Positions 9,713 through 56,340 of a DNA stretch of 64,000 bases are shown in pieces (position 1 is the first letter of the stretch; each line of letters begins with the position of its first letter). This stretch comes from Uranotaenia lowii (Eukaryota > Arthropoda > Insecta > Diptera > Culicidae). The stretch covers positions 22,985,639 through 23,049,638 of the forward strand of contig NC_073691.1 in NCBI RefSeq assembly GCF_029784155.1. The letters run 5' to 3'. The position numbers and the translations under genes are program-made. The notes under the pieces were generated by a model. The model was not told where the DNA came from and did not search any database. It worked only from the letters and a program-made list of their open reading frames with translations.

Positions 9713-10168
9713 TCTAGCATCCTTGCTATCTCCCATCAATTCCAAATTCCCAATCATAAAAGTCTTGTTAGTAAAAAAAACCCATGAGTCTGTTAAACGG
9801 ATTCCACGGTCATAAAACAAATAAGTATTTTGCTTCACGTGCGACCTTTACCGATGCGCGGAGGTAAGCATAGTTTGTTTTCCTTTACGTCGACTCACCG
9901 ATGAGGTCTGCTATGCTTTGGGGGCTTTGGGGGCTATGCTCTGTGGGGCGTCGTTTATTGTTGTTTTATACATGGGCTTTCCAAAGCGCTGCGTTATGTC
10001 TGACTGCCTGACTGCCTGACTACCATTGTAAACATAGTATTTAAGAAACTTGGAAATAAAGATTGACAATCATTTACCCAACTAGTAATCGAGGCGCACA
10101 GAGGTGCTGCCGGTTATTCATTCAGTTTTCATCCGAAATCATTAAAAACACTGAAGTGAAATACCAAA
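9713..10168 (+). mobile_element. 5' LTR of Ty3 element with small membrane ORF
   Basis: Repeats the start of the preceding interval, then has a polyadenylation signal (AATAAA near 10053) and ends directly at a tRNA-Arg-type primer-binding site. The order U3-like, AATAAA, PBS is that of a 5' LTR. No 3' partner LTR is identified in the window. Confidence 0.6.
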
Positions 10169-10188
10169 TGGCGACCGTGACAGGACTC
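10169..10188 (+). promoter_or_regulatory. Primer-binding site, tRNA-Arg type
   Basis: TGGCGACCGTGACAGGACTC is complementary to the 3' end of an insect tRNA-Arg(UCG) as I remember it (…GAGTCCTGTCACGGTCGCCA including the CCA). It primes minus-strand synthesis. Related sites: 15064, 50061, 35057 and 13511. Confidence 0.7.
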
Positions 10189-10276
10189 ACCAAGGAAAAG
10201 AAGTCTTGAAACAAAGTAAAAGTTCTTGAAACAAAGTAAAAGTGGAAAAGTGCAACTAAGAGTAAACTAGTGAAAC

Positions 10277-10477
10277 ATGGGCTGGTTCAGCACAGAAAAT
10301 TTTATCACAAATCAAGTGGCATCAAAGGAAACAGAACTGATCGCCACAGTGCTCATAATAATCACGTGTTTGCTGGTAGCCTATGCTGTGTTTAAGGCAT
10401 ACAACAGTCATCTTAAAACACACGTAAAAAATGTGGCAGCACGGGAAATCGTGCTGAGCAACGTACGCTCAGTATAG
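10277..10477 (+). CDS. Small single-pass membrane protein, MGWF family (copy 1)
   Basis: 66 codons, intact, start in strong context (A at -3, G at +4). It is the first ATG after the PBS 108 nt upstream. Residues 1-5 are MGWFS; a hydrophobic segment follows at about residues 20-42 (ELIATVLIIITCLLVAYAVF); the tail is basic and ends REIVLSNVRSV. Predicted topology: short N-terminus, one membrane helix, cytoplasmic-type basic tail. A Ty3 gag begins 494 nt downstream. Homologues sit downstream of PBS-like sites at 13606, 34125, 38711, 45172 and 50403. I do not recognise a named family. Possible roles, all inference: membrane anchor for gag, viroporin or small fusogen. Confidence 0.7.
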   Translation: MGWFSTENFITNQVASKETELIATVLIIITCLLVAYAVFKAYNSHLKTHVKNVAAREIVLSNVRSV

Positions 10478-10598
10478 TGACCAATCAGTGATGTATATGT
10501 ATAAACTAGCATGTGATGACATACCGTGTGAGGTGCCTTATATACAAACTCTTAGCTAAACAGTAAATAATAAAAGTGATAGAAGAACAATTTTTGCA

Positions 10599-10838
10599 AT
10601 GATAAAACTGGCATGTGGAGTTAAAGGATGCTGGCCAGTGCGAGTAAAGTTGGCAAGCGAAACAACAACGGTACCATCAGCAGAAATAATGGCGGTTCAC
10701 TCACCACAAGATCTAATCAGTGAAGTTATGGCGTGTGGTATACTCCTTGTATATCTAGTGATCCTGTAAGCAGTGTACATCCGACTGGGAGGCGTCCGGC
10801 GAGCGCTACAGAGAGCGCAGGAACCGCATCCGGCGTAA
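10599..10838 (+). pseudogene. Second small membrane ORF between MGWF ORF and gag
   Basis: 56 codons to a TAA at 10767, then 22 more in-frame codons to 10836. The first part has a hydrophobic stretch (EVMACGILLVYLVIL) interrupted by the stop; the read-through part is basic (RLGGVRRALQRAQ). Topology therefore resembles the MGWF proteins, and it may be a decayed relative or a second accessory membrane peptide. Nothing comparable is clearly retained at the same place in the 50-kb element, where a basic 53-codon ORF occupies the gap. Confidence 0.35.
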
Positions 10839-10970
10839 ACAACACATCAACACTTCAAGATAAGTAAATACTATTTACTACGTATTATCAAAAAAAAAAA
10901 AACAAACAACAAAAAAACCAACATATTGTTTAGTATAACTTAAGATTGAGTCGAAAAATAAATATTATCT

Positions 10971-11801
10971 ATGAATCGTCTCGAAGAAATCGAGTACTAC
11001 ATTGCAAAAGAACACGATAACTTAAAGAAAAGCGTCAATAATGTTAAAACGTTTGAACTTGTAAAAGCCAAAGAAGAAAAACTAAAAGTTAGTTTTAACG
11101 AGTATAAAGAATTAGTCCAATCAATTAAAAATTATTTCATTGAAACAGGAACTTGGGAAAAACAAGTGGAAAAATACCATTTACTAAAAGCTCGTTTTAA
11201 TCAATCTTTACAATTATTGGCTACTTCAATATTAAGTACCAAAAACACCAAAACTTCAAAAATAAAACTAAAAACTATTTCAAAGGTTGCGATAATACTC
11301 AGTCGGTATATAAAAATGCCAGCTTTCGATATCAAAACAGCCACGGCGCTGGTGCACCCCTATGACGGTGCCGCCGCTGGGCTGGAGTCATTCATCGACT
11401 CAGCAAACTTGCTGAATGAGATAGTATCGGCAGCTCACAAAGAGATTGCCGGAAAATTTTTGAGAACCAGACTTACTGGTAAAGCTAGGTTGGGTTTACC
11501 CGACTCGGCTAAATCTATCGAAACAATAGTGGCAAATGTCAAAGAACGTTGTCAGGATAAAATTACTCCCGACAGCATTTTGTCAAAAATGAAAAACGTA
11601 CGTCAAAATCAGTCACCACAAACACTGTGCGACGAAGTTGAAGGCTTAACTGCACAACTAAAAGCAGTTTATCTGGGAAGCAAAATACCTGACGATGTTG
11701 CGTCGACAATGGCAAATAAAGCTGGCGTCGATGCTTTGATAAACGTTGTAACAAACAACGACACCAAACTCATCTTGAAGGCTGGGACTTTTAACCACTG
11801 A
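10971..11801 (+). pseudogene. Ty3/gypsy gag type 1, 3'-truncated
   Basis: 276 open codons. Residues 1-115 are Lys/Glu-rich and likely coiled coil; from about residue 116 the protein has PAFDIKTATALVHPYDG and then the capsid-like helical region ending KLILKAG. It matches 6465-7345. The frame stops after TFNH where unrelated DNA (with a THAP exon) starts at about 11795. The Gln/Asn-rich C-terminal tail reappears at 12778. Gag is preceded by PBS, MGWF ORF and a second small ORF, giving the best view of this element's 5' order. Confidence 0.8.
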
Positions 11802-13204: not shown

Positions 13205-13222
13205 TGGCGCCCGAATAGGGAC
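13205..13222 (+). promoter_or_regulatory. Primer-binding site, tRNA-Lys(UUU) type
   Basis: TGGCGCCCGAATAGGGAC differs at one position from the 18-nt complement of animal tRNA-Lys(UUU). A different primer from the Lys(CUU)-type sites at 37357 and 43513, so a different element family. Confidence 0.65.
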
Positions 13223-13605: not shown

Positions 13606-13794
13606 ATGAGTTGGTTTGGAGATAACATAGTAAATCACACCGAGGTAAGCACGACAGAAGTGCGAATTCTGTCCGGCGCTGCCGTGGTAGCTGTTGTGAT
13701 GCTTGTCATATACATGTGCGTGCCTACAAGCGCTTTCAAAATACACAAGGGCAAGCGCAAAAGAACAAGTTCAGCGCGAAGTGCGCTTGAATAA
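13606..13794 (+). pseudogene. Small membrane protein, MGWF family (copy 2, frameshifted)
   Basis: Starts MSWFGD (Gly2 replaced by Ser), 95 nt after the PBS-like site at 13511, and no ATG lies between. Residues 5-24 (FGDNIVNHTEVSTTEVRI) closely match copy 38711, then a hydrophobic helix (GAAVVAVVMLVIYMC). The annotated frame ends at 13794, but in another frame the codons from about 13761 give QREVRLNNLKVE, the family's tail motif, so one indel near 13750 separates the two. Start context has A at -3. Function unknown. Confidence 0.6.
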
Positions 13795-18150: not shown

Positions 18151-18602
18151 AAAATCATTGTCGACCGCCTGATGCAGGAATACTTAATCCCTCATCCGTC
18201 CCTAATTTTAATACCCGTTTAATGTTTTAGAAGTATTATTTGAAATTTATGTAACGCAACTCAAATATGATTTTCAGTTAAAATCATTTATATTTATATT
18301 AGCCAAGATCGAAGAAAACTAAATAGAAAAAAAAATGCGTCGGCAAAAGGCAGAAGATCAGTAAACAAATGCTAAGAATATCATTTACAATATCTTGAGC
18401 AAGATGAAGCTAGATTTTTGTGACAGATTGGTTTAAAAAAATTAAACCGATTCACGTGAAAGACATTCTGAAACGATTGTAAAGACATTTTAGAGTTATT
18501 TTTGTCATTTTTGGCTTCAAAAACATTTTTTAATAATACCTGTGTAATTAAAGAATTTTTGTCAATTTTTTTCCCATTTTCGTCCATTTTGTCAAATTTG
18601 TC
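18151..18602. other. AT-rich spacer
   Basis: No gene. The right part passes gradually into the 9-bp satellite through degenerate TTTTTGTCA-like units. Confidence 0.5.
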
Positions 18603-18812
18603 TATTTTAAAGTTAATGTTATTTTTGTCATTTTTGTCACTTTTGTCATTTTTGTCATTTTTGTCATTTTTGTCATTTTTGTCATTTTTGTCATTTTTGT
18701 CATTTTTGTCATTTTTGTCATTTTTGTCATTTTTGTCATTTTTGTCATTTTTGTCATTTTTGTCATTTTTGTCATTTTTGTCGTTTTTATCATTTTTGTA
18801 ATATTCGTCACG
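18603..18812 (+). repeat. TTTTTGTCA satellite, short array
   Basis: About 20 head-to-tail copies of the 9-mer TTTTTGTCA (TGACAAAAA on the other strand), nearly perfect. Same monomer as the large array at 60.8-63.8 kb. Because 9 is a multiple of 3, all six frames look open; these are not genes. Confidence 0.95.
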
Positions 18813-18867
18813 TTTCATCTTCCGTTTCTTATCTCTCTGGCTTCTGAACCGTACATACATAACATCC

Positions 18868-18935
18868 ATAAACTGGGGAGATACCATTTGGTTTGAAAAA
18901 TACTCCGGCAACCTTTCAAAGTGCGAGAAACAGAT
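18868..18935 (+). pseudogene. Ty3 RT fragment (PFG/FQ block)
   Basis: One frame reads IPFGLKNTPATFQSAR, an almost consensus RT block, with no RT sequence on either side. Confidence 0.55.
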
Positions 18936-21689
18936 ACTTACACAATGGGCCAATATGAAATTTTATCCAAATTTTGCTGACAATTATTGAACCAATTCTA
19001 ATGAACATTCATTTTTTTTTATTAAAATACCTACCTTTGGTCTCTTTACCGCACTTCCATTCAAATGATGACAAATACAAAGTTTCTGATAGTTTACGCA
19101 AATATTTGACGAAACAGACAAAACTCGACCAAAGGAAAATCTCCGAAAAGATGAAACATGAACCACGAATCGATGACAAATTAGATGAACCTGTAGGAAA
19201 TTTCGGATTGCATTGAAAGGAAAACGGAACACAAGAGGGATCAAGTTGAGTGTATGTTTATTCTGTAGATTCCTTCCGACGAAAAAACAAGTTACAGCAA
19301 CTGCAGATGATGAACTTCGATACTTGAGATACTTCTGGAGGACACTGTTGATCGCTGTTAGGAAATTTCCAAATGTGGTTTAGAGCTAGCAAAGGATTGA
19401 GTTTTCCAGCGTGTAGGACACAGTTTGAGTTAGATCTCGGCGAATTTCCGTGGATTTTGAAACATTTTTTTGGATCTTCTTCGATGAGGTATAAATGCTT
19501 TTCTTTGTCGCTCACATTCGTTGCCATGGTACCCATATTCGGGTGACGGGTGTATTTCCTGGGAGGCCTCGGCACATAGAAACGGGTGACGCTCTCTTGC
19601 TCAAGTTAGCCACTCAGTTCCACCACACGTTTTGAAATCTTGGAGTTTGCTCTCTTTATTTTCACGCTCTGATAATTTCTTTGGGCCCGCCATGTAATAC
19701 TACCAAAATTAGCTTGACGACGGACGTGTTAATGGCTTCAAGGTCTAAACTCCGGTTTTGAAACCTCATAGTTGCTTCAGTTTCTCAAACGTGATGTCCA
19801 GTCTTATCGATGAGCGAGTACCAGACACCTCGAGACTTATGAAACTTTGTTGGAAACCTCAATCCGATCTTGATTTACTTTTCCATTGTATACTTTGACA
19901 CATCGTTTCATCAATAAAACTTTTTTGAGATAATTTGCAACTGCAATAGCCATCTTACTCGAATGGTTTTGTTGGCACCTCTTGACCAAGCATCGACGAG
20001 ATCTCATTCAAATTAGTAGACAGCATCGTTGAAGTGTTTTAAATAGACTGACAGCATTTTCTTTATTTTGGCTAAGACTATGGTTATTTGTTTCAAACTG
20101 GCAGCATGTTCTTTGTCTGCTTCAATACATCCTGGCATCGTTGTTGATAGATTTTGCCGAACTGAGTGACGCATAAGCTTATGTTTGAAGAAACTGACAG
20201 CATCATTAATGTTTTAAAAAAAGCTGACAACCCGGTTGCCAGTTTTCAGTAACATATGTGAACGGTGTTTTTCATGCCGAAGCTACACTTACAGCTTTTG
20301 GGAGTGCTGTGAAGTTGACCCGCAACACTATCTAGTGTACTGCACTTCATTTTCTCTAGTCGTTGAACTCTTTGGTGCTTCACTGTATCTGCTTAGCTTC
20401 ATTGTTTTCTAAAATCAGCAGTAATCCAGAGATAGTTGATAAGTCTTGAAGTTTCGTCCGAGCCCATTTGTTTTACTCCATTGCACACCGTGTCCAGCCC
20501 GTTTTCGACGAACTCATAGCAGCAGCAATTAAGTTGATCAAGCAACATGATACCACACAATGCAATCAGTCCTATTCCGCAGTAATCTCTTCTGGTTCTG
20601 CCATACTCGATCCGACTTCCTCGATGAACTCCGACGATGACCGTGTCTCCATAAAACCGGGGGCTTATTGCTATAATAATCTATCGCTTTACTTTTATTG
20701 GAAAACTTTCGCTTAGAAGAAACTGATCTTGATTCAGCAATGATTTTTTTCTAAATTTTTACAAACACAACATTTCATTATAAATTGCTAACCTGATTTT
20801 GGTTTTTTTTTTCTTTTGAAGAACTTGTATTTTAAGTTCACCAGACTTGCTCAATTGGAAAAAAAATCAATAATCTATCTAACAATCAATCATAATATCC
20901 ATGTTATCGGAAAAATTTCCATTCTCAAATTGAATATCGTGTTATCATTTTAACTGAACTAAAGTTATTTAGCATAATTTCGAAATCCTACTATTTTATA
21001 AGAATTTTGATTAAAATCATTCATTCTAGTTTTGACACATTTCAGTGAATTTCGACAATTGGATGGAAACTTTCATGACACCTAATATTATCCTACGGGC
21101 AAACTTTTTTCTTGAATCCTAGCTGCGATAGAATTTACAATATTTTCTCAGATATATTTTCTTTTAAAACAGATCCTTCATATTTAAATCCTAATAGCCT
21201 TGAACACATCAAAATTCTACTGTTCTCATTTTTCTTGGATATCTCAAGCTTCATTCTTGCTTTGTGACATTTGAGAGATTATTTTTAGTTTTAAGTGTCT
21301 AATAGTTTATAAAAAAAATTGTTGTATTATTTTTGTTTGTTTCTTGTGAGTCTTCGTTTTACATTTTCTCTTTGAGTTGGTGAAATTTTTACATGTTTTA
21401 ACAATATTTCAAATTTTTTAATGTAATTCTACCTTCAAATGGCTGCCCTAGCTGTGTGTTTTTTTTTATTTGAAATACATTGTTTTTTCTAAGCCCTACA
21501 TTACAGAGTAGAACTACTAAAATCAATTACATAAGTTTCTATTCAGAAAATTATTTTTTATCCTATGGCAGTTGAATCAATGATCTTCTTTGGAAATATT
21601 TTAGAAACAATGCTTGTTCTTCATGAAAGTGGAATCTGAATATCTATATAAATATCTTTTGGTGTCACAAGTACACCAGCATCCTTACA
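18936..21689. other. Long interval without recognised gene
   Basis: I find no transposon or gene signature here. The longest frame is a minus-strand 105 codons (19258-19575; HPNMGTMATNVSDKEKHLY), without a family match and without a convincing start. 20468-20716 is a Ser/Asp-rich forward frame of 82 codons, also unrecognised. Composition is AT-rich from 20700 onward. Confidence 0.4.
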
Positions 21690-27786: not shown

Positions 27787-28905
27787 GCTATTATTATTAT
27801 CGCTCAAGTTTTTGTATCGTATCAAGTTTATTGTTAATCTGTAAGTCCACTTATCTTAAAATATCTGGTTTTTGATCCAAATAAATAAGAATGAATAAAC
27901 AAATTGAGTTGTATCACCTTAATGATGAGGAGATGGAATATGAATTGGCCTTGCGAAATGTTATGAATGTAGCCCCATGCTCTAGAAGAGCTAGGGTGGT
28001 CAAGTTAGAAGCCCTTGTCCAAGAGGACACCCTTAGAGACACCATTTATGTAAATTCAGAACACGTAATGTAGAATTGAGGAATGATGTTGATTTAGCCC
28101 GCAGAATAGAAACGCCGATCAAATGGCTTGCGCGAAATCGAGGTTGTTCACTACCGGCAACGATAATCACTGATTCCAGTGGTCGCGAATTTAGAGGAAA
28201 CGCGTAGAGTCGTGTGTGAGCTTGTAGAGACGCTGCTAGCTCAGATAGAGTGTGTGAACAGTGCAGTTAATATGGTGCTAAGTGAAACAGAAAACACTAG
28301 CCCTTCAACTAGTGTCCCAACCATCCAGGCAGAGAACAGTAGCAGTAGGGATGCCTGCGATGCGTTAAAGATTCCACCGGGATGAAGGAGCACGGATGCA
28401 AGAAGCGGATGTTGAGCCGGCTTCTCTTCCATTCCAAGGAGGCAGACGAGGACATAGGGACTCGGAGGAAGTAATCATCCGGAGGTCGGGTAGTTCGGCT
28501 GGTCCAGCTGCTGTGAACGTTCTGGACGAACTGCGGCTCGACATTCAACAACGACAAAGGAGGCAGCAGCAGCTGAACGACAGCTTCACAAACCGAAGTG
28601 GTAGCAACTATGACAGGCGGATGCAGAAGGCGATTCACAATTGGCCTTTCAAGTTCCGAGGTGAAAGGGACACCACTTCCCTCCACATTTTCTTGGACCG
28701 GGTGGAGACGTTTGCCAGATCAGAGGGAATCGACGATCAGACACTTCTGGCTTCTAGACGCCCTCGACTGGTACTCCAGAGCACTTGCCCAACGTCACCT
28801 GTATTCCTGGCAAGCATTTAAACAAGAATTTCGACAGCGCTAGAGGCGAGCACGGTTGGGTCAAACGACGAGAGAGCGTCCGAAAGGGTCGTGCCGTGAT
28901 CAGTG
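27787..28905 (+). pseudogene. Ty3/gypsy gag type 2
   Basis: Leader and N-terminus (MNKQIELYHLNDEEMEYE, from 27891) as at 6170. After a stop at 28071 and frameshifts come VVCELVETLLAQIECVNSAV (28205-28265), a Gln-rich spacer, and a capsid-type block: WPFKFRGERDTTSLHIFLDR, ARSEGIDDQ, then in the neighbouring frame LDWYSRALAQRHLYSW and FKQEFRQR, the signature of the Retrotrans_gag domain. Arg-rich tandem repeats follow (28905 on). Gag builds the particle core; this copy cannot make one protein without frameshifts. Confidence 0.7.
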
Positions 28906-29082
28906 GCAGCCGCCCTCACGGGACAGTATCAGCAATCACCGTGGCAGGAGGAGAAAGTCGCGTGCCCTACGTGATATTGTCAGTGTCAACAACCACCGCA
29001 GGAGGCGAGAGCCGCGTGTACTGCGTGCTGGTTTGGGTGTCGGCGACAACCGCAGGAGGCGAAAGCCGCGTGGACTGCGAGA
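28905..29082 (+). repeat. 54-bp Arg-rich coding repeats, left of LINE
   Basis: About three units of a 54-bp (18-codon) repeat built around 'GCAGGAGGCGAAAGCCGCGT'. In the frame that continues gag it encodes NHRRRREPRVLRAGLGV-type units, a plausible basic RNA-binding domain in place of a zinc knuckle. The array is cut by the LINE at 29083 and a scrap resumes after it (31612-31670). A second array is at 35570-35880. Confidence 0.75.
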
Positions 29083-31611
29083 CTAAATTACATATTTATG
29101 GTGATTTTAACCAGAATTCCATTGATTTTATTGAAGATGTTGAAAACTCATCGATATTGCAACCGGTTATAGGTGAGAACGTAACATTACATTTTATTTT
29201 TGATAAAATAAGTGAACTAGGATTTCATCAAATTAATCATGTTCGCAACCAGCAAAACCGCTTTTTAGACCTATTGTTCACCAACTGCACGGAAGATTTT
29301 TGTATTGAAGAAGCTGCAGATCCATTATGGAAAAACGAAAAATTTCATACTGCCATAGAGTATTCACTTTTTACTGATCTATATAGACAGCGCCCTAGTG
29401 GTGCCGATTTTGAACTCGTATACGATTTTAAAAACCTGAATTATTCTGATTTTGATATGCGTTTCAATGATATTAATTGGCAAAATCTTTTGAAAGATGA
29501 ATCAGATATGAATGTAGCTGCTGGTTTATTTAGTAGTAATCTACATACAATTATTGACGAACTCGTGCCTAAGAGAAAGAAAAGAATACTGACAAGCTAT
29601 AAACATCCAGCATGGTACACACGTGATATAAAACAACTCAAAAATAAAAAGCAAAAAGCACATAAAGCCTATAAGAAAAATAAAAATTCGCACAATCTGA
29701 ACGCATACAAAGAAATTTGCAGAGTACTTGATGTAGAAATATCGCTAGCTTATAACAGTTACAACGCAAGAGTAGAGAGCAATATTAAATCCGATCCTAA
29801 AACCTTCTTTAGCTATGCAAATGAAAAAATGAAAACATCTAATTTTCCATCACGTATGCAGTTTGAAGACTTTGATGGATCTGACAGTGAAGAGATTTGT
29901 AACCAGTTTGCTCGTTTTTTTCAAAATATTTACAAAAAATCTAATGCTTCTCCAGACTTAAATTATTTTTCATATCTTCCTGAACGAGTAAATGACGTTA
30001 GTGTTGAAAATATTACTGTGCAAGAAATTTTAAGTTCCCTCAATAGTCTTGATGACAAAAAAGGTCCAGGTCCTGATCAAATACCTCCACTATTACTTAA
30101 AAAATTTGCTACTTCATTTGTTAATCCACTATTTTGGCTTTTCAATTTATCTCTTAAATCAGGAGTCTTTCCGATAGCCTGGAAAAAGTCATTTTTAATC
30201 CCAATATTTAAATCTGGTAAACGATCAGATATAAAAAATTATCGAGGCATTGCTATTATCTCATGTATCCCAAAGATGTTTGAGGCGATTGTGAATCAAA
30301 AGATGTTCAATCAAGTAAATAATCGCATCTCCAATAACCAACATGGCTTTTTCAAAGGTAGATCAACATCTACCAACCTATTAGAATTTGTGAACTTCTC
30401 GCTTGGAGCTATGGACAGATGTAATTTTGTTGAAACTTTATATACAGATTTTAGTAAGGCGTTTGATAGAGTTGACATTTCATTGCTACTTTTTAAACTA
30501 AAACGTATAGGATTATCAACTTCACTTTTAAAATGGATCGAGTCATATTTGTCGGATCGAACGCAGGTAGTCCGTTTTAAAGGAAAAATCTCGACAGAAA
30601 TACAGGTCACTTCTGGTGTTCCACAAGGATCTCACTTGGGCCCCTTGTTATTTATAATTTTTGTTGACGATATCAATTTAGTATTAAATAGCGTCAAAGT
30701 ACTCATTTATGCCGACGATATGAAACTGTACATGGAGATACGTAACAGAATGGATTTACAGCATTTTCAGGATGATATTGATATTTTTTACACTTGGTGT
30801 GCAAAAAGTCTGCTAGATCTCAATATTAAAAAGTGCAACATTATATCTTACTCTAGAAAACTGAACCATCATGATTTTAATTTTACTTTAGGGCAGCAGC
30901 AGATTGAAAGATGTAACAAAATTAGGGACCTAGGTGTAATACTGGACACCAAACTAACTTTTATTGAACATTTTAACACGATTATTAATAAAGCTTTCAG
31001 TATGTTAGGGTTTATCAAAAGATTCTGTTATCACTTTAAGGACCCTTATACAATAAAAACACTTTTCATATCGTATGTAAGATCTATACTCGAATATTGT
31101 AGTGTAGTTTGGTGCCCGTATCAGCCCACTCATGTTACAAGAATAGAATCGGTTCAAAAACAATTTCTACTGTTTGCACTAAGAAAGCTGGGCTGGAGTT
31201 CCACTTTAATTCTTCCATCATATGAAGCACGATGCATGTTAATCAATATTGAAACGCTTGAAAAACGAAGAGACGTTGCTATGATTTCCTTTGTAAACGA
31301 TATTATCTCCCAACGTGTAAAATCAGAATACTTGTTAGAAAACTTGAACTTTTACACACCCTCGCGCATACTAAGAACCAGAAACTTATTTCAAGCTGAG
31401 TCTCAACGAACCATGTACGCCAGCAACAAACCTGTGAACCAAATGATGAAAACTTATAATCAATATTGTGTACATATTGACATAACCATGTCCAGAGCTG
31501 CAATAAGAAAAGTGTTAAACAGAAGACATTTACAAAATAGTGGTTAAGACAATTTTTGTATGAGCAAATTGTAAACGTAGTCTACAACTGATTGACGAAA
31601 TAAATAAATAA
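29083..31611 (+). mobile_element. 5'-truncated LINE (Jockey/CR1-like) with open ORF2
   Basis: From about 29083 to 31547 the frame is open for about 820 codons with no stop, so the copy is young. It begins inside the endonuclease (IYGDFN, then the C-terminal SDH-region equivalent), followed by RT motifs: GPGPDQIPPLLLK; NYRGIAI; QHGFFKGRST; TDFSKAFDRVD (first catalytic Asp); GVPQGSHLGPLLF; YADDMKLY (catalytic pair, 30708 on). No RNase H follows. The 3' end is a short UTR and an AATA-type tail ('GAAATAAATAAATAAG'). The upstream gag repeat is in frame with ORF2, which artificially lengthens the ORF to 920 codons (from 28785). Inserted into the Arg-rich repeat of a Ty3 gag. Confidence 0.85.
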
Positions 31612-34124: not shown

Positions 34125-34337
34125 ATGGGTTGGTTTTCGGCAGACGAAATCGTCGCCCCAATCATAAGCAATCAGTGCGAAGGCCACCGTACGGCCCAGA
34201 CAGTGGCGATTTGCGCGCTAGCATTAGCGGCGCTAAGTTACATTGCAATCCAAGGAATCGTTAAATTAAACAGGCACCAAATCGAGAGGGTAACAGCTCG
34301 AACGGTGAGAATGAACAATCTGAGTGCCGATGTGTAA
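34125..34337 (+). CDS. Small single-pass membrane protein, MGWF family (copy 3)
   Basis: 70 codons, intact, 273 nt after a PBS-like site; start context A at -3 and G at +4. MGWFSADEIVAP opens it; a hydrophobic Ala-rich helix covers about residues 25-47; the tail (KLNRHQIERVTARTVRMNNL) is strongly basic. By hand alignment about 42 of 70 positions are identical to the copy at 45172, and both keep QIERVT and RMNNLS. Such conservation between independently inserted copies argues for selection in the parent elements. No gag follows here; LTR sequences flank it. Confidence 0.7.
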   Translation: MGWFSADEIVAPIISNQCEGHRTAQTVAICALALAALSYIAIQGIVKLNRHQIERVTARTVRMNNLSADV

Positions 34338-38710: not shown

Positions 38711-38914
38711 ATGGGTTGGTTCGGAGATACAGTAATCAACCACTCCGAAGTGAGTACGACCGAAATACGAATTATGGCCGGGGCTGCCGTAGTTCTCGTA
38801 GTCATCGTAATGGCGTACCTGTGCTTACGAGTGCACGCAAAATACGCGAAAAGAGGCACACGACAACAAGTGCTACACGAAATGCGTTTAAACAACCTTA
38901 AAATCGAAGTTTAA
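38711..38914 (+). CDS. Small single-pass membrane protein, MGWF family (copy 4)
   Basis: 67 codons, intact, 108 nt after the PBS-like site, as at 10277; start context A at -3, G at +4. MGWFGDTVINHSEVSTTEIR opens it, then a long hydrophobic helix (residues about 24-42) and a basic tail ending VLHEMRLNNLKIEV. Copies 13606 and 50403 belong to the same subgroup. An in-frame upstream codon string extends to 38618 but has no ATG. The coiled-coil tail of a PHD-type protein follows 58 nt downstream, so this small ORF may precede either Ty3 gag or a PHD-type gag. Confidence 0.7.
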   Translation: MGWFGDTVINHSEVSTTEIRIMAGAAVVLVVIVMAYLCLRVHAKYAKRGTRQQVLHEMRLNNLKIEV

Positions 38915-45171: not shown

Positions 45172-45378
45172 ATGGGTTGGTTCTCGACCGACGAAATTGT
45201 CGCGCCAGTTGCTAGTGGCGATAGTGAAAATAAGGCTACCCAAAGCATCGCCATATGTGTACTAGCCGTAGCTGCAGTGGGGTACATCGCCGCAAAATTG
45301 CTGACGAAACTCCATCGCCAGCAAATAGAACGTGTTACCAACCGCACCATTAGAATGAACAATCTGAGCAACGTGTAA
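45172..45378 (+). CDS. Small single-pass membrane protein, MGWF family (copy 5)
   Basis: 68 codons, intact, 294 nt after the PBS, start context A at -3 and G at +4. MGWFSTDEIVAP, then an Ala/Val/Ile helix (about residues 25-46), then a tail with QIERVTNRTIRMNNLSNV. Close relative of 34125. A four-codon in-frame extension (from 45160) has no ATG in front, so the MGWF start is preferred. A 34-codon upstream ORF starts at about 44927. Confidence 0.7.
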   Translation: MGWFSTDEIVAPVASGDSENKATQSIAICVLAVAAVGYIAAKLLTKLHRQQIERVTNRTIRMNNLSNV

Positions 45379-50402: not shown

Positions 50403-50612
50403 ATGGGATGGTTCACTGGAGACACCATCATCACGCACACTCATCATTTGGCACCAACGGAATAACGATTCATTGCGGGAGCCATCATCATCTTCGTTGC
50501 TAGTGTCCTATGCTATTTTTGCTTAAGGACACACAGCAAATGCCAGAAAGCGAGGATCCAACAGGCGGCACAGCGAGAGGTACAACTGAATAACATCAAA
50601 GTCTGCCAATAA
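50403..50612 (+). pseudogene. Small membrane protein, MGWF family (copy 6, one stop)
   Basis: 69 sense codons plus one internal TAA at codon 21. MGWFTGDTIITH opens it; after the stop the helix (AGAIIIFVASVLCYFCL) and a basic tail with QREVQLNNIKV follow in the same frame. The stop falls where related copies have Ile or Val. No ATG occurs in the 342 nt between PBS and this start; A at -3, G at +4. The gag of the element starts at 50928. Confidence 0.65.
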
Positions 50613-50927: not shown

Positions 50928-51212
50928 ATGTCTTGCATCAACACTAGTAAAAAAAAACTCAATGAGGGCAAAAAGACATATAATTTACTGGTCGATTTGA
51001 TCGAAAAAATCGATATAGAAAAAGACCAAAATTTTGCGTTCAAAGCTTTGCACCAAGTGTACGGCGAATTCTTGGTTATCGTTAGACAAAAACTAGACGA
51101 TAAAAGAAAATTAATAAGTCTAAGAAATTTAGCGAAAATTATCATAGCACCTAACAAGCTATATCAATCCAACACAATGACATTCGATATCAAACAAGCC
51201 ACAGGGATTAAT
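50928..51212 (+). pseudogene. Ty3 gag type 1, N-terminal part
   Basis: Lys/Asp-rich coil (LVDLIEKIDIEKDQNFAF; VIVRQKLDDKRKLI) and then MTFDIKQAT, which corresponds to PAFDIKTAT in the gag at 10971. It is cut right there by repeat A, as the gag at 15313 is cut by another repeat A copy. The order LTR-PBS-MGWF-gag is the same as at 9713-11801. Confidence 0.65.
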
Positions 51213-51420
51213 CGAATAGTTAAATCAACTATATTTATTGCTGAATGCATAAAATCGATCATACAATGATAATTGAATCTATTATACTTGTTGTCAATAC
51301 TACTATTCCGTCTTAAAAAAGAGTACAAATCGTGCCGGGAAAAAATCAACCGTTAATTTCTTTTTATTGCTTGGAAAAATTATAGTGGATGTATCCCACT
51401 CAGTGACTTAAGTGACCATG
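51212..51420 (+). repeat. Repeat A copy 7
   Basis: Contains the CAACTATATTTATTG and GTGCCGGGAAAAAATCAAC blocks; interrupts gag. Confidence 0.65.
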
Positions 51421-53945: not shown

Positions 53946-54690
53946 ATAAAAAGCTAAAGCGCATTTTATAACATCATCTGGACTCTAATAAAGCCAAAAT
54001 CAGGCTATTTGGCCCTACCCTAGAAACGTCATCAAGACATATAATTGTTGGTCATCAATGTTGGTCACCAAAGCTTTTAAAAAGCTATTATAAAATTTTA
54101 GAAAAAATTATAGAAATTTTTGTTTTTTTTTTCGGTTCTGTCAGTTCCCGGAGTTTTTTTTTTATTTTTTTCCAGCAACCATAATGGTTGATGAATGATG
54201 ATTGCATTATTCAGATATGATCTGGTAAAATTAATAGCTAAAAAAACCAATGTTTTAACCATATATTGAGCTTCTTTTCTACTGCCAGTCAAGATTTTAG
54301 GTAAAATGTATGTGAAATAGTATCTTAAAATAAATGCGCCTCGTCAAATCTGATGGTTAATCATGATGGAATTGATGGAAAAAGGCCTGGAAAAATATTT
54401 TCCAATGCTTGCATTGTGAATCCATCAACATGGCGTCATTTTGTGCCCTTCGATTTTGCAACCAACATGGCGTGAGTCAATTCATAGTTTTATTATGGTT
54501 TAATGATGACCCCAAAAAAAGCTACGATTTGACGTTTCTCTCGCAAGCCAACCAATTACACGCTAAGGTTGAGTTCCTCATTTCTGAGTTGTTAATCATT
54601 AGTACAGTAAATGAGGACAGACTTTTTGAATGCAAAGGGATTGGTTTTGAATGACCCGTGGAATAAATCATGAGTTGAAGTCAAATTTTG
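53946..54690. other. Interval without recognised gene
   Basis: AT-rich. ATGGCG words at 54433 and 54466 foreshadow the palindromic array. Nothing else seen. Confidence 0.4.
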
Positions 54691-54696
54691 TTGTCT

Positions 54697-56100
54697 GACG
54701 CCATCTTGAAATCCAAGATGGCGGCTTCCGCTAAACTTTAAAATGGTGTAAATGACTTGAAATCGCATGAAACCCCAACAAAATGGGTATCGGGTGAAAG
54801 GGCTAAACGAGTAGAAGTTGAATTTCGCTATCAGACGCCATCTTGAAATCCAAAATGGCGGCATCCGCTCAACTTTTAATGCTTAATGCTGACAAAAAGT
54901 CGCATTAAACCACCACTATACGGGTATTGGGTGAAAGGGCTAAACTAGAAGTCGATTTTTTTTCTTTCCGACGCCATCTTGAAATCCAAGATGGCAGCTT
55001 CCACTGAATTTAAAATACTGTTAATCAATGAAAATCGCTTGAACACAACTTTTTTCACGTAATACTACATTAAAACTACTATTTTAAGACAATTTAGATC
55101 ATTTTAAATCACTTTTATTATTTTTCCATTATGTTTCTAATGCATTTAGCACTTTTCTTGTTTTGTTTATAGTTTTTGTTTTTTTTTTTGCCATTTATGT
55201 AACTCTATTATTCCTATCTTGCTTTTATGTTTAAATTGTATTGGTCTTATTCTTGCGAAAACTATAAGGTTATGTTGTTTCTGTTAACCGTCTGATTTAG
55301 GCACATGTGCCAAATTCGATGTTGCCAAAATCGAATGTTGCCAAAAACGAACGGGGTCTGTATTGTGGTGGTTTTTGTGGGATTTTCAGTCACTTACAGA
55401 TTTTCAGAGAAACGCGAAAACAGATATTTGACTTCTATCATTTAGCCTTAGCACCCAATATAATAAATTTGGGAGTTTCATGCTATTTTCATTCATTTAC
55501 AGTATTTTTAAGTTCAGCTGAAGCCACCATCTTGGATTTCACGATAGCGTCAGAATGCAAAAATAAACTTTTTAAGCTTATCCCAATTGACAAACACCCA
55601 TACTTGGAGGTTTCATGCGATATTCAATGATTTAAAGCATTTTTAAAGTTTATAGAAAGCTGCCATCTTGGATTTCAAGATGGCGTAAGATAGCAATATT
55701 CGACTTCTACTCGTTAAGCCCTTCCACCCAATACCACCTGGGTTTCATGTCATTTTAAGTCATTTACTACATTTTAAAGTTTAGCGGAAGCCGCCATCTT
55801 GGATTTCAAGATGGCGTCTGATAGCGAAATTCAACTTCTACCGGTTGATTTCTTTCAACTTATACCCCTATAATATAGGTTTTATGCGACTTTCAGTCAT
55901 TTACAGTATTTTCAAGTTGAGTGGTAGCCGCCATCTTGGATTTAAGATGGCGACGGGCAACGAAATTTGACTTCTACTCTTATTCTACTCTCTTATTACT
56001 TTCACCTAATAACCATATTGTGAAGGTTTCACGATATTTTCAGTAATGTACAGCTTTGAAAATAAAAGCGGAAGCCGCCATCTTGAATTAATGATGGCGT
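54697..56100. mobile_element. Inverted tandem array of palindromes (foldback-like)
   Basis: Eight imperfect palindromes of the form CCATCTTG-gattt-CAAGATGG at about 54697, 54837, 54971, 55523, 55659, 55789, 55928 and 56074. They lie in units of 130-146 bp. The three left units run in one direction, the five right units in the opposite one, around a centre of about 500 bp (55000-55510). Long inverted repeats made of tandem subunits are the architecture of foldback transposons. The half-site AAGATGGCGGC equals the YY1 consensus. No transposase is present. Confidence 0.65.
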
Positions 56101-56340
56101 CAAGCAACAATTTTTTTTCCTACTCCTACTTTTTCCCTTTCACTTAATACTCATATTGTAAAGATATTCATACCACTTTCGGTGATTTCAAGTTTTCAAA
56201 GATGAATTTTTTTAATTTTAACTCAAAACCAACACGCATAGCTTACCAAAAATGTGTAAAAATGGGAGTTCCAATTCAAATATGTGCTATCTAATCTGAG
56301 CGTGTCCTGTTTTGACATCTTGATCGAGAACTGTCACTAA

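Follow-up and report, generated by a model that had tools for sequence, protein, structure and literature searches.

Short membrane-protein ORFs ahead of gag in a Uranotaenia lowii locus: probable sORF2 genes of MDG1-like Ty3 retrotransposons in same-orientation arrays

A 64-kb stretch of the Uranotaenia lowii genome (C1:22985639-23049638, hereafter the window) raises the question of what the short open reading frames (ORFs) starting with M(G/S)WF ahead of retrotransposon gag genes are, and what they might do for the elements that carry them. Based on their position and anatomy, we assign them with high confidence as sORF2 genes of MDG1-like Ty3 (Metaviridae) LTR retrotransposons, and they are called sORF2 below. 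The six starts given in the preliminary description, at 10277, 13606, 34125, 38711, 45172 and 50403, are all present on the plus strand, with A at -3 in every case and G at +4 in five of the six, and no further M-x-W-F was found in the six frames of the 64-kb window. The length of 66-70 residues reported for the peptides holds for 10277..10477 (copy 1, 66 aa), 34125..34337 (70 aa), 38711..38914 (67 aa, with a 100% identical protein encoded at C1:188639628) and 45172..45378 (68 aa). It does not hold for 13606..13794, an sORF2-like ORF of 62 aa whose tail is out of frame relative to its relatives, nor for 50403..50465, which is regarded as a broken sORF2 because its frame stops after 20 codons while the homology extends beyond the in-frame stop. 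A tail of the form (R/Q)-x-NN-(L/I), ascribed to five copies, lies in the open frame of 34125, 38711 and 45172 only; in 13606 and 50403 it is found in another frame or past the stop.

The order of features was established for copy 1, all on the plus strand. The 5' LTR (9715..10168) was delimited by the point where similarity to loci L002, L003, L004 and L005 begins and by the primer binding site (PBS) at its end. It is followed by the PBS (10169..10188), complementary to the 3' end of tRNA-Arg(TCG) plus CCA, by the intact sORF2 (10277..10477), for which three 98% identical relatives show the same ORF order, by a second small ORF designated sORF-T (10599..10769), and by a truncated gag of 276 aa (10971..11801). 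The sORF-T of copy 1, which the earlier reading of this copy had omitted, is shortened to 56 aa by a premature in-frame stop; in other loci the ORF is intact, with 77-100 aa. The second gag reported behind one of the six frames was also recovered, at 50928..51269 (+); it is the N-terminal part (113 aa) of the gag of the 50403 element, resembles the L083 gag by eye and lies in a region whose DNA is similar to L083.

PBS-like TGG sites had been placed 95-342 nt upstream of the six starts, and we found them at 108, 95, 273, 109, 294 and 342 nt, in coordinate order (among them 13511 for 13606, 33852 for 34125 and 44878 for 45172). Copy 1 is the only one of the six with a clean PBS, which agrees with the 3' end of tRNA-Arg(TCG) at 20/20 bases by reading and at 18/18 in a scored 18-base comparison. 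The corresponding tRNA-end pattern matched 12 places in the genome, ten of them with the exact end, and ARAGORN detected tRNA-Arg(tcg) in five of six scanned loci. A tRNA-Arg primer is a trait of the MDG1 group, and the match between its PBS and the tRNA-Arg(TCG) genes of this genome indicates that copy 1 has this trait. The best 18-base match of 50403 to the same tRNA is 13/18, reached by a fraction of 0.013 of 300 random stretches, and that of 13606 is 12/18, at 13205 and off its named PBS-like site (random fraction 0.077); matches of 34125, 38711 and 45172 are at chance level (random fractions 0.68, 0.27 and 0.28; 300 stretches). At 34125 and 45172, the PBS-like sites are similar to a second PBS type seen in genome relatives (TGGCGATCC...). 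This second type (TGGCGATCCTGCC...) dominates the 45172-like families, and we suspect that it pairs with tRNA-Arg(ACG).

The arrangement had been presented as a new accessory-ORF architecture in Ty3 elements. This was rejected, as PMC11952523 already describes sORF2 ahead of gag in the MDG1 group. There, an ORF of ~70 aa that precedes gag in MDG1-group Metaviridae is named sORF2, and its product is proposed to be a FAST-like cell-cell fusogen through which elements pass from soma to oocyte without Envelope (Voichek et al. 2025, PMC11952523). Because that class has been described, the window ORFs are regarded as further members of it. Similar to the sORF2 of Drosophila MDG1-group elements (412, Mdg1, Stalker1/2, Tabor and a Blood variant), they lie upstream of gag and encode ~70 aa with one transmembrane (TM) helix, a basic tail, a Tyr at the helix end and, in most cases, an MG start; in Drosophila the helix is central and an N-myristoylation motif occurs in four of six (PMC11952523). 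The U. lowii elements differ from them in three respects: most of their proteins lack the strict N-myristoylation motif, some families carry an extra small ORF between sORF2 and gag, and there is no sORF1, a nuclear protein of ~110 aa encoded upstream of sORF2 in Drosophila (PMC11952523). No sORF1 counterpart was found between PBS and sORF2, where the ORFs that start have at most 51 codons, except for one of 113 codons in L058 that runs into sORF2. The same source reports 105 sORF2/FAST-like consensus ORFs across 29 arthropods, Aedes aegypti having 33 consensus ORFs and 306 insertions. Compared by description, these and the U. lowii ORFs probably represent one family in related hosts, with the reservation that the Ae. 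aegypti set was filtered for a predicted N-myristoylation motif (PMC11952523), whereas 40 of the 50 distinct proteins found here lack strict MGxxxS/T.

To place the window copies in the genome (1.08 Gb searched; of its 2009 contigs, the three large ones have 216, 437 and 370 Mb), we used three of their proteins as queries. The copy-1 protein matched at least 31 places, 30 without internal stop, the 45172 protein at least 77 (75 without stop) and the 38711 protein at least 19 (15 without stop). Reading of 84 loci plus the window gave 82 entries, in which the 45172 copy is counted twice (window and L009), and 50 distinct proteins of 62-71 aa; at most 84 of 123 sORF2 places were read as loci, and the start-motif pattern could miss divergent copies. 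With this extraction no sORF2 was obtained in L007, L060, L064, L068, L069 and L070. The 50 proteins fit the traits of the class, which are a length of about 63-107 aa, a single TM helix, charges arranged as for N-out/C-in and a basic tail, the helix being judged by hydropathy. Gly2 is present in 49 of them, a hydrophobic 19-residue window (KD19 >= 1.6, hydropathy only) in 49, and a positively charged tail and a neutral or negative ectodomain in all 50. A Tyr near the inner end of the helix occurs in 49, and its column is almost invariant in the alignment. The strict myristoylation motif MGxxxS/T was found in 10/50 and its relaxed form, MGxxx[STAGCN], in 44/50. A structure model of sORF2 consists of one helix, residues 17-67, at modest confidence (pLDDT 70, pTM 0.36). 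Eight outside proteins share 55-70% identity with the 45172 protein, and Pfam scans of the small ORFs gave nothing above the cut-off.

The coding sequences show the mark of amino acid constraint. The dN/dS ratio, which the preliminary description had proposed to measure, was calculated for 1485 pairs from 55 distinct coding sequences and is mostly below 1, where a value near 1 between copies had been named as evidence against the proposal: the median is 0.29 in the 74 usable pairs (dS 0.05-1.2), and 53 of these are below 0.5. Ratios above 1 appear in 12/74 pairs, all of them cross-family comparisons of L001, L002 or L005 with L051-L054. The 12 closest disjoint pairs differ at codon positions 1/2/3 by 26/10/69, and the pooled pN/pS is 0.53 over 25 disjoint pairs, about half of which have a dS above 1; the disjoint pairs leave out L005, L055 and L057. 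The membrane anatomy is kept between window copies whose identity falls to 16-25%. Of 30 other 60-75-aa ATG ORFs in the six frames of the window, taken as a chance control, one has a comparable hydrophobic stretch and basic tail; chance ORFs as the source of the M(G/S)WF frames were ruled out by constraint and by anatomy relative to these controls. By sequence comparison, sORF2 is a real leading gene under purifying selection, lying between PBS and gag and coding for a predicted one-helix membrane peptide. We also observed ORFs that depart from the common pattern. The sORF2 of L055 is by eye a mosaic, with an N-terminal half like the L015 family and a C-terminal half like L057, which suggests template switching near the helix, and L074 has a 65-aa sORF2-like ORF starting MWPFGG (L074:1587-1784) in addition to an MGFF sORF2.

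The position ahead of gag extends from the window to the genome. Same-strand gag homology lies behind an intact sORF2 in 64 of 78 loci, in agreement with the order proposed for the window, and begins 135-1475 nt past the sORF2 stop; gag queries were drawn from 16 loci, and queries from other loci alone give 64 again. Gag homology upstream of or antisense to sORF2 was found in none of the 78 loci within the stretches examined, and gag homology was absent in 14, each with 0.7-1.7 kb examined downstream. On the other side, a PBS-like 8-base site lies within 450 nt upstream of sORF2 in 70/78 loci (about 5% by chance, by our own arithmetic), at a distance of 40-446 nt.

An anchor, a viroporin or a FAST-like fusogen had been offered as functions of the peptide. 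The last is the reading favoured in PMC11952523, with fusion unproven, and the need for sORF2 not shown genetically, even there. The protein is predicted to pass the membrane once: a short N-terminal ectodomain, neutral or acidic and bearing Gly2, leads into one helix with a Tyr where it ends on the inner side, and a basic tail follows. Its translation presumably takes place on the full-length RNA, ahead of that of gag. If the example of Drosophila 412 holds, sORF2 would most likely assemble together with Gag capsids at the plasma membrane in somatic cells of the ovary and drive local fusion with the oocyte, and an element without env would in this way reach the germline. The localisation, the capsid association and the transfer are taken over from PMC11952523, in which 412 RNA, Gag and sORF2 get from follicle cells into the oocyte without env. 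We consider a role of sORF2 in soma-to-oocyte transfer moderately probable. If it is true, the spread of sORF2 through this large genome is a measure of how often retrotransposons that were supposed to be cell-bound may behave like infectious agents. Like reoviral FAST proteins, as PMC11952523 describes them, sORF2 is small, has a single membrane pass and carries a basic patch; it differs in having no sequence homology to FAST proteins, and the cell-cell fusion activity that marks them is for sORF2 a proposal.

A rather unlikely alternative is that sORF2 plays no part in cell-cell fusion and works within the cell that expresses it, either as a viroporin or by anchoring Gag assembly to the membrane. 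One helix, a basic tail and Gly2 fit a membrane anchor equally well, and in PMC11952523 fusion by sORF2 was not reproduced in minimal assays. Against this, the same paper places Drosophila sORF2 together with capsids at invasive protrusions that enter the oocyte, and the position and class of the ORFs described here match Drosophila sORF2. In 65 of the 70 loci with a PBS-like site, the TGG of that site shares bases with an ATG (for example at window 10168), which opens a short frame; exactly one ATG stands ahead of sORF2 in 51/70 loci, and its frame of 3-25 codons closes before sORF2 in 50 of these 51. Even with short upstream ORFs (uORFs) this common, it is extremely unlikely that sORF2 itself is a uORF that tunes gag translation through a functionless peptide, given the amino acid constraint, the anatomy preserved among the divergent window copies and the sORF2 peptides found by mass spectrometry in Drosophila (PMC11952523).

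In the family of copy 1, sORF-T forms a second membrane ORF between sORF2 and gag. It has 79 aa in L002-L004, 100 aa in L006, L008 and L070, 83 aa in L007 and 77 aa in L068 and L069, and its start is lost in L005. Most copies begin with M(I/Y)KLACG..GCWP(V/I), and the alignment of six members contains nine invariant columns (M, A, C, G, G, C, W, P and one Thr). Beyond this start, a hydrophobic window with a KD19 of 2.03-3.29 is followed by a positive tail (+2 to +5); an N-out/C-in orientation is poorly supported because the charge before the helix is 0 to +4. The outside proteins P0009 and P0010 share sORF-T, and P0010 clearly has both a hydrophobic stretch and a tail rich in lysine. Genome matches to sORF-T were found at 11 places, ten of them directly behind an sORF2 place found with the copy-1 protein. 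Over the first 17 codons, differences at positions 1/2/3 are 4/3/12 between L002 and L006 and 3/4/11 between L002 and L007, and 5/3/5, with no third-position excess, between L006 and L007. In the comparison of L001 with L002, the sORF2, the sORF-T region and the gag part have no gap columns, and there are 22 in the LTR, one in the UTR and nine in each of two spacers. The whole-ORF dN/dS is 0.60-0.68 in moderately diverged pairs (L007-L068, L006-L069, L069-L070) and 0.29-0.76 in those more diverged pairs that give a value, and constraint outside the N-terminus is for this reason regarded as weak. The possibility that sORF-T is a recognisable duplicate of sORF2 was discarded, with no BLASTP alignment and no profile match. 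We tentatively suggest, as speculation that we think more likely wrong than right, that sORF-T acts as a partner of sORF2. It offers a handle on the failure of sORF2 to fuse cells in minimal assays, for which a missing partner is one possible reason.

A different ORF, sORF-S, occupies the interval between sORF2 and gag in 45172-like families. It has 71-114 aa, was found by its start pattern in 22 of the first 78 loci, and its carriers include L011-L014, L016, L055 and L057. It is regarded as soluble, without a TM-like helix, because its KD19 is only 0.45-1.48. The alignment of four members has 15 invariant columns, and the median dN/dS is 0.43 (nine usable pairs). The structure predicted for one member has three helices (pLDDT 84.5, with four sequences as input), and a fold search of the PDB with this model gave no matches at E <= 0.001. 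As a candidate, sORF-S may correspond to sORF1 in swapped order. The 38711-like loci L080-L082 have neither sORF-T nor sORF-S. No description of either ORF was found in the text of PMC11952523 covered here, and searches of the openly accessible literature for the term sORF2 pointed to no further paper among those listed.

The orientation of the elements is the second feature of this locus. All 18 retroelement coding blocks detected by tblastn, with Pfam domains, between 2485 and 47671 (gag, RT, RNase H, integrase and related ORFs) are on the plus strand; as the tblastn queries were Ty3-type and related ORFs, other kinds of elements could be missed. For the whole genome, 127 result rows were reduced to 123 sORF2 places, one overlapping fragment and three duplicates being left out. 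These form 21 neighbour pairs within 100 kb, compared with a mean of 1.24 and a maximum of 6 pairs when the 115 places that lie on the three large contigs were positioned at random (2000 trials). The orientation agrees in 20 of the 21 pairs, though 65 of the 123 places are on the plus strand. Three loci hold six sORF2 places each, all on the plus strand: the window, C1:96.73-96.78 Mb and C2:14.82-14.94 Mb.

In Drosophila, the LTR elements within flamenco and flam-like clusters share one orientation (PMC10643416), and flamenco is enriched in MDG1 elements (PMC11952523); Aedes, too, has flamenco-like loci (PMC7919454). The arrays described here resemble the unistrand piRNA clusters of PMC10643416 in that LTR elements of several families are piled up in one orientation, and differ from the mosquito flamenco-like loci of PMC7919454, for which a lower transposon density is reported. 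The window is regarded as a candidate unistrand (flamenco-like) piRNA locus. It is quite unlikely that such arrays arose by local duplication, or by the nesting of copies of a single element, and are not selected antisense traps. Two two-copy clusters on C3 do look like one inverted segmental duplicate, with equal scores and spacing, and in the C1:96.7 Mb array the L042 protein shares 86% identity with that of L048. Without the two C3 pairs, orientation still agrees in 18 of 19 neighbour pairs, and similarity between L021 and L022 sets in only at about base 1100, the start of their shared element. The 5' parts of the window copies share almost no DNA: since 14 of 15 blastn comparisons were empty and one gave only 36 nt, these copies represent separate insertions of different families. 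The candidate unistrand loci, which we did not see described in the literature searched on sORF2 elements, are named places for testing a somatic piRNA defence against env-less elements outside Drosophila.

For the family of copy 1, a doubtful but specific scheme can be drawn in which sORF2 and sORF-T would act in Envelope-free transfer as a split fusogen, the Cys-flanked N-terminal segment ACGxxGCWP inserting into the target membrane, and the host would answer with flamenco-like unistrand loci that collect many sORF2 families in one orientation.

Other features were noted beside the sORF2 elements. Within the C1:96.7 Mb same-orientation array, L048:1881-2120 holds a 79-aa ORF that starts MGNTKSS and has one hydrophobic helix and a basic tail, unlike the MGWF family. 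In the window, an open reverse transcriptase ORF of 920 codons (28785-31547, plus strand; Pfam RVT_1) apparently belongs to a non-LTR element, satellite arrays with a 9-bp period occupy 18415-18966 and the region from about 60760 onward, and a complex of direct and inverted repeats extends over 54672-56163.
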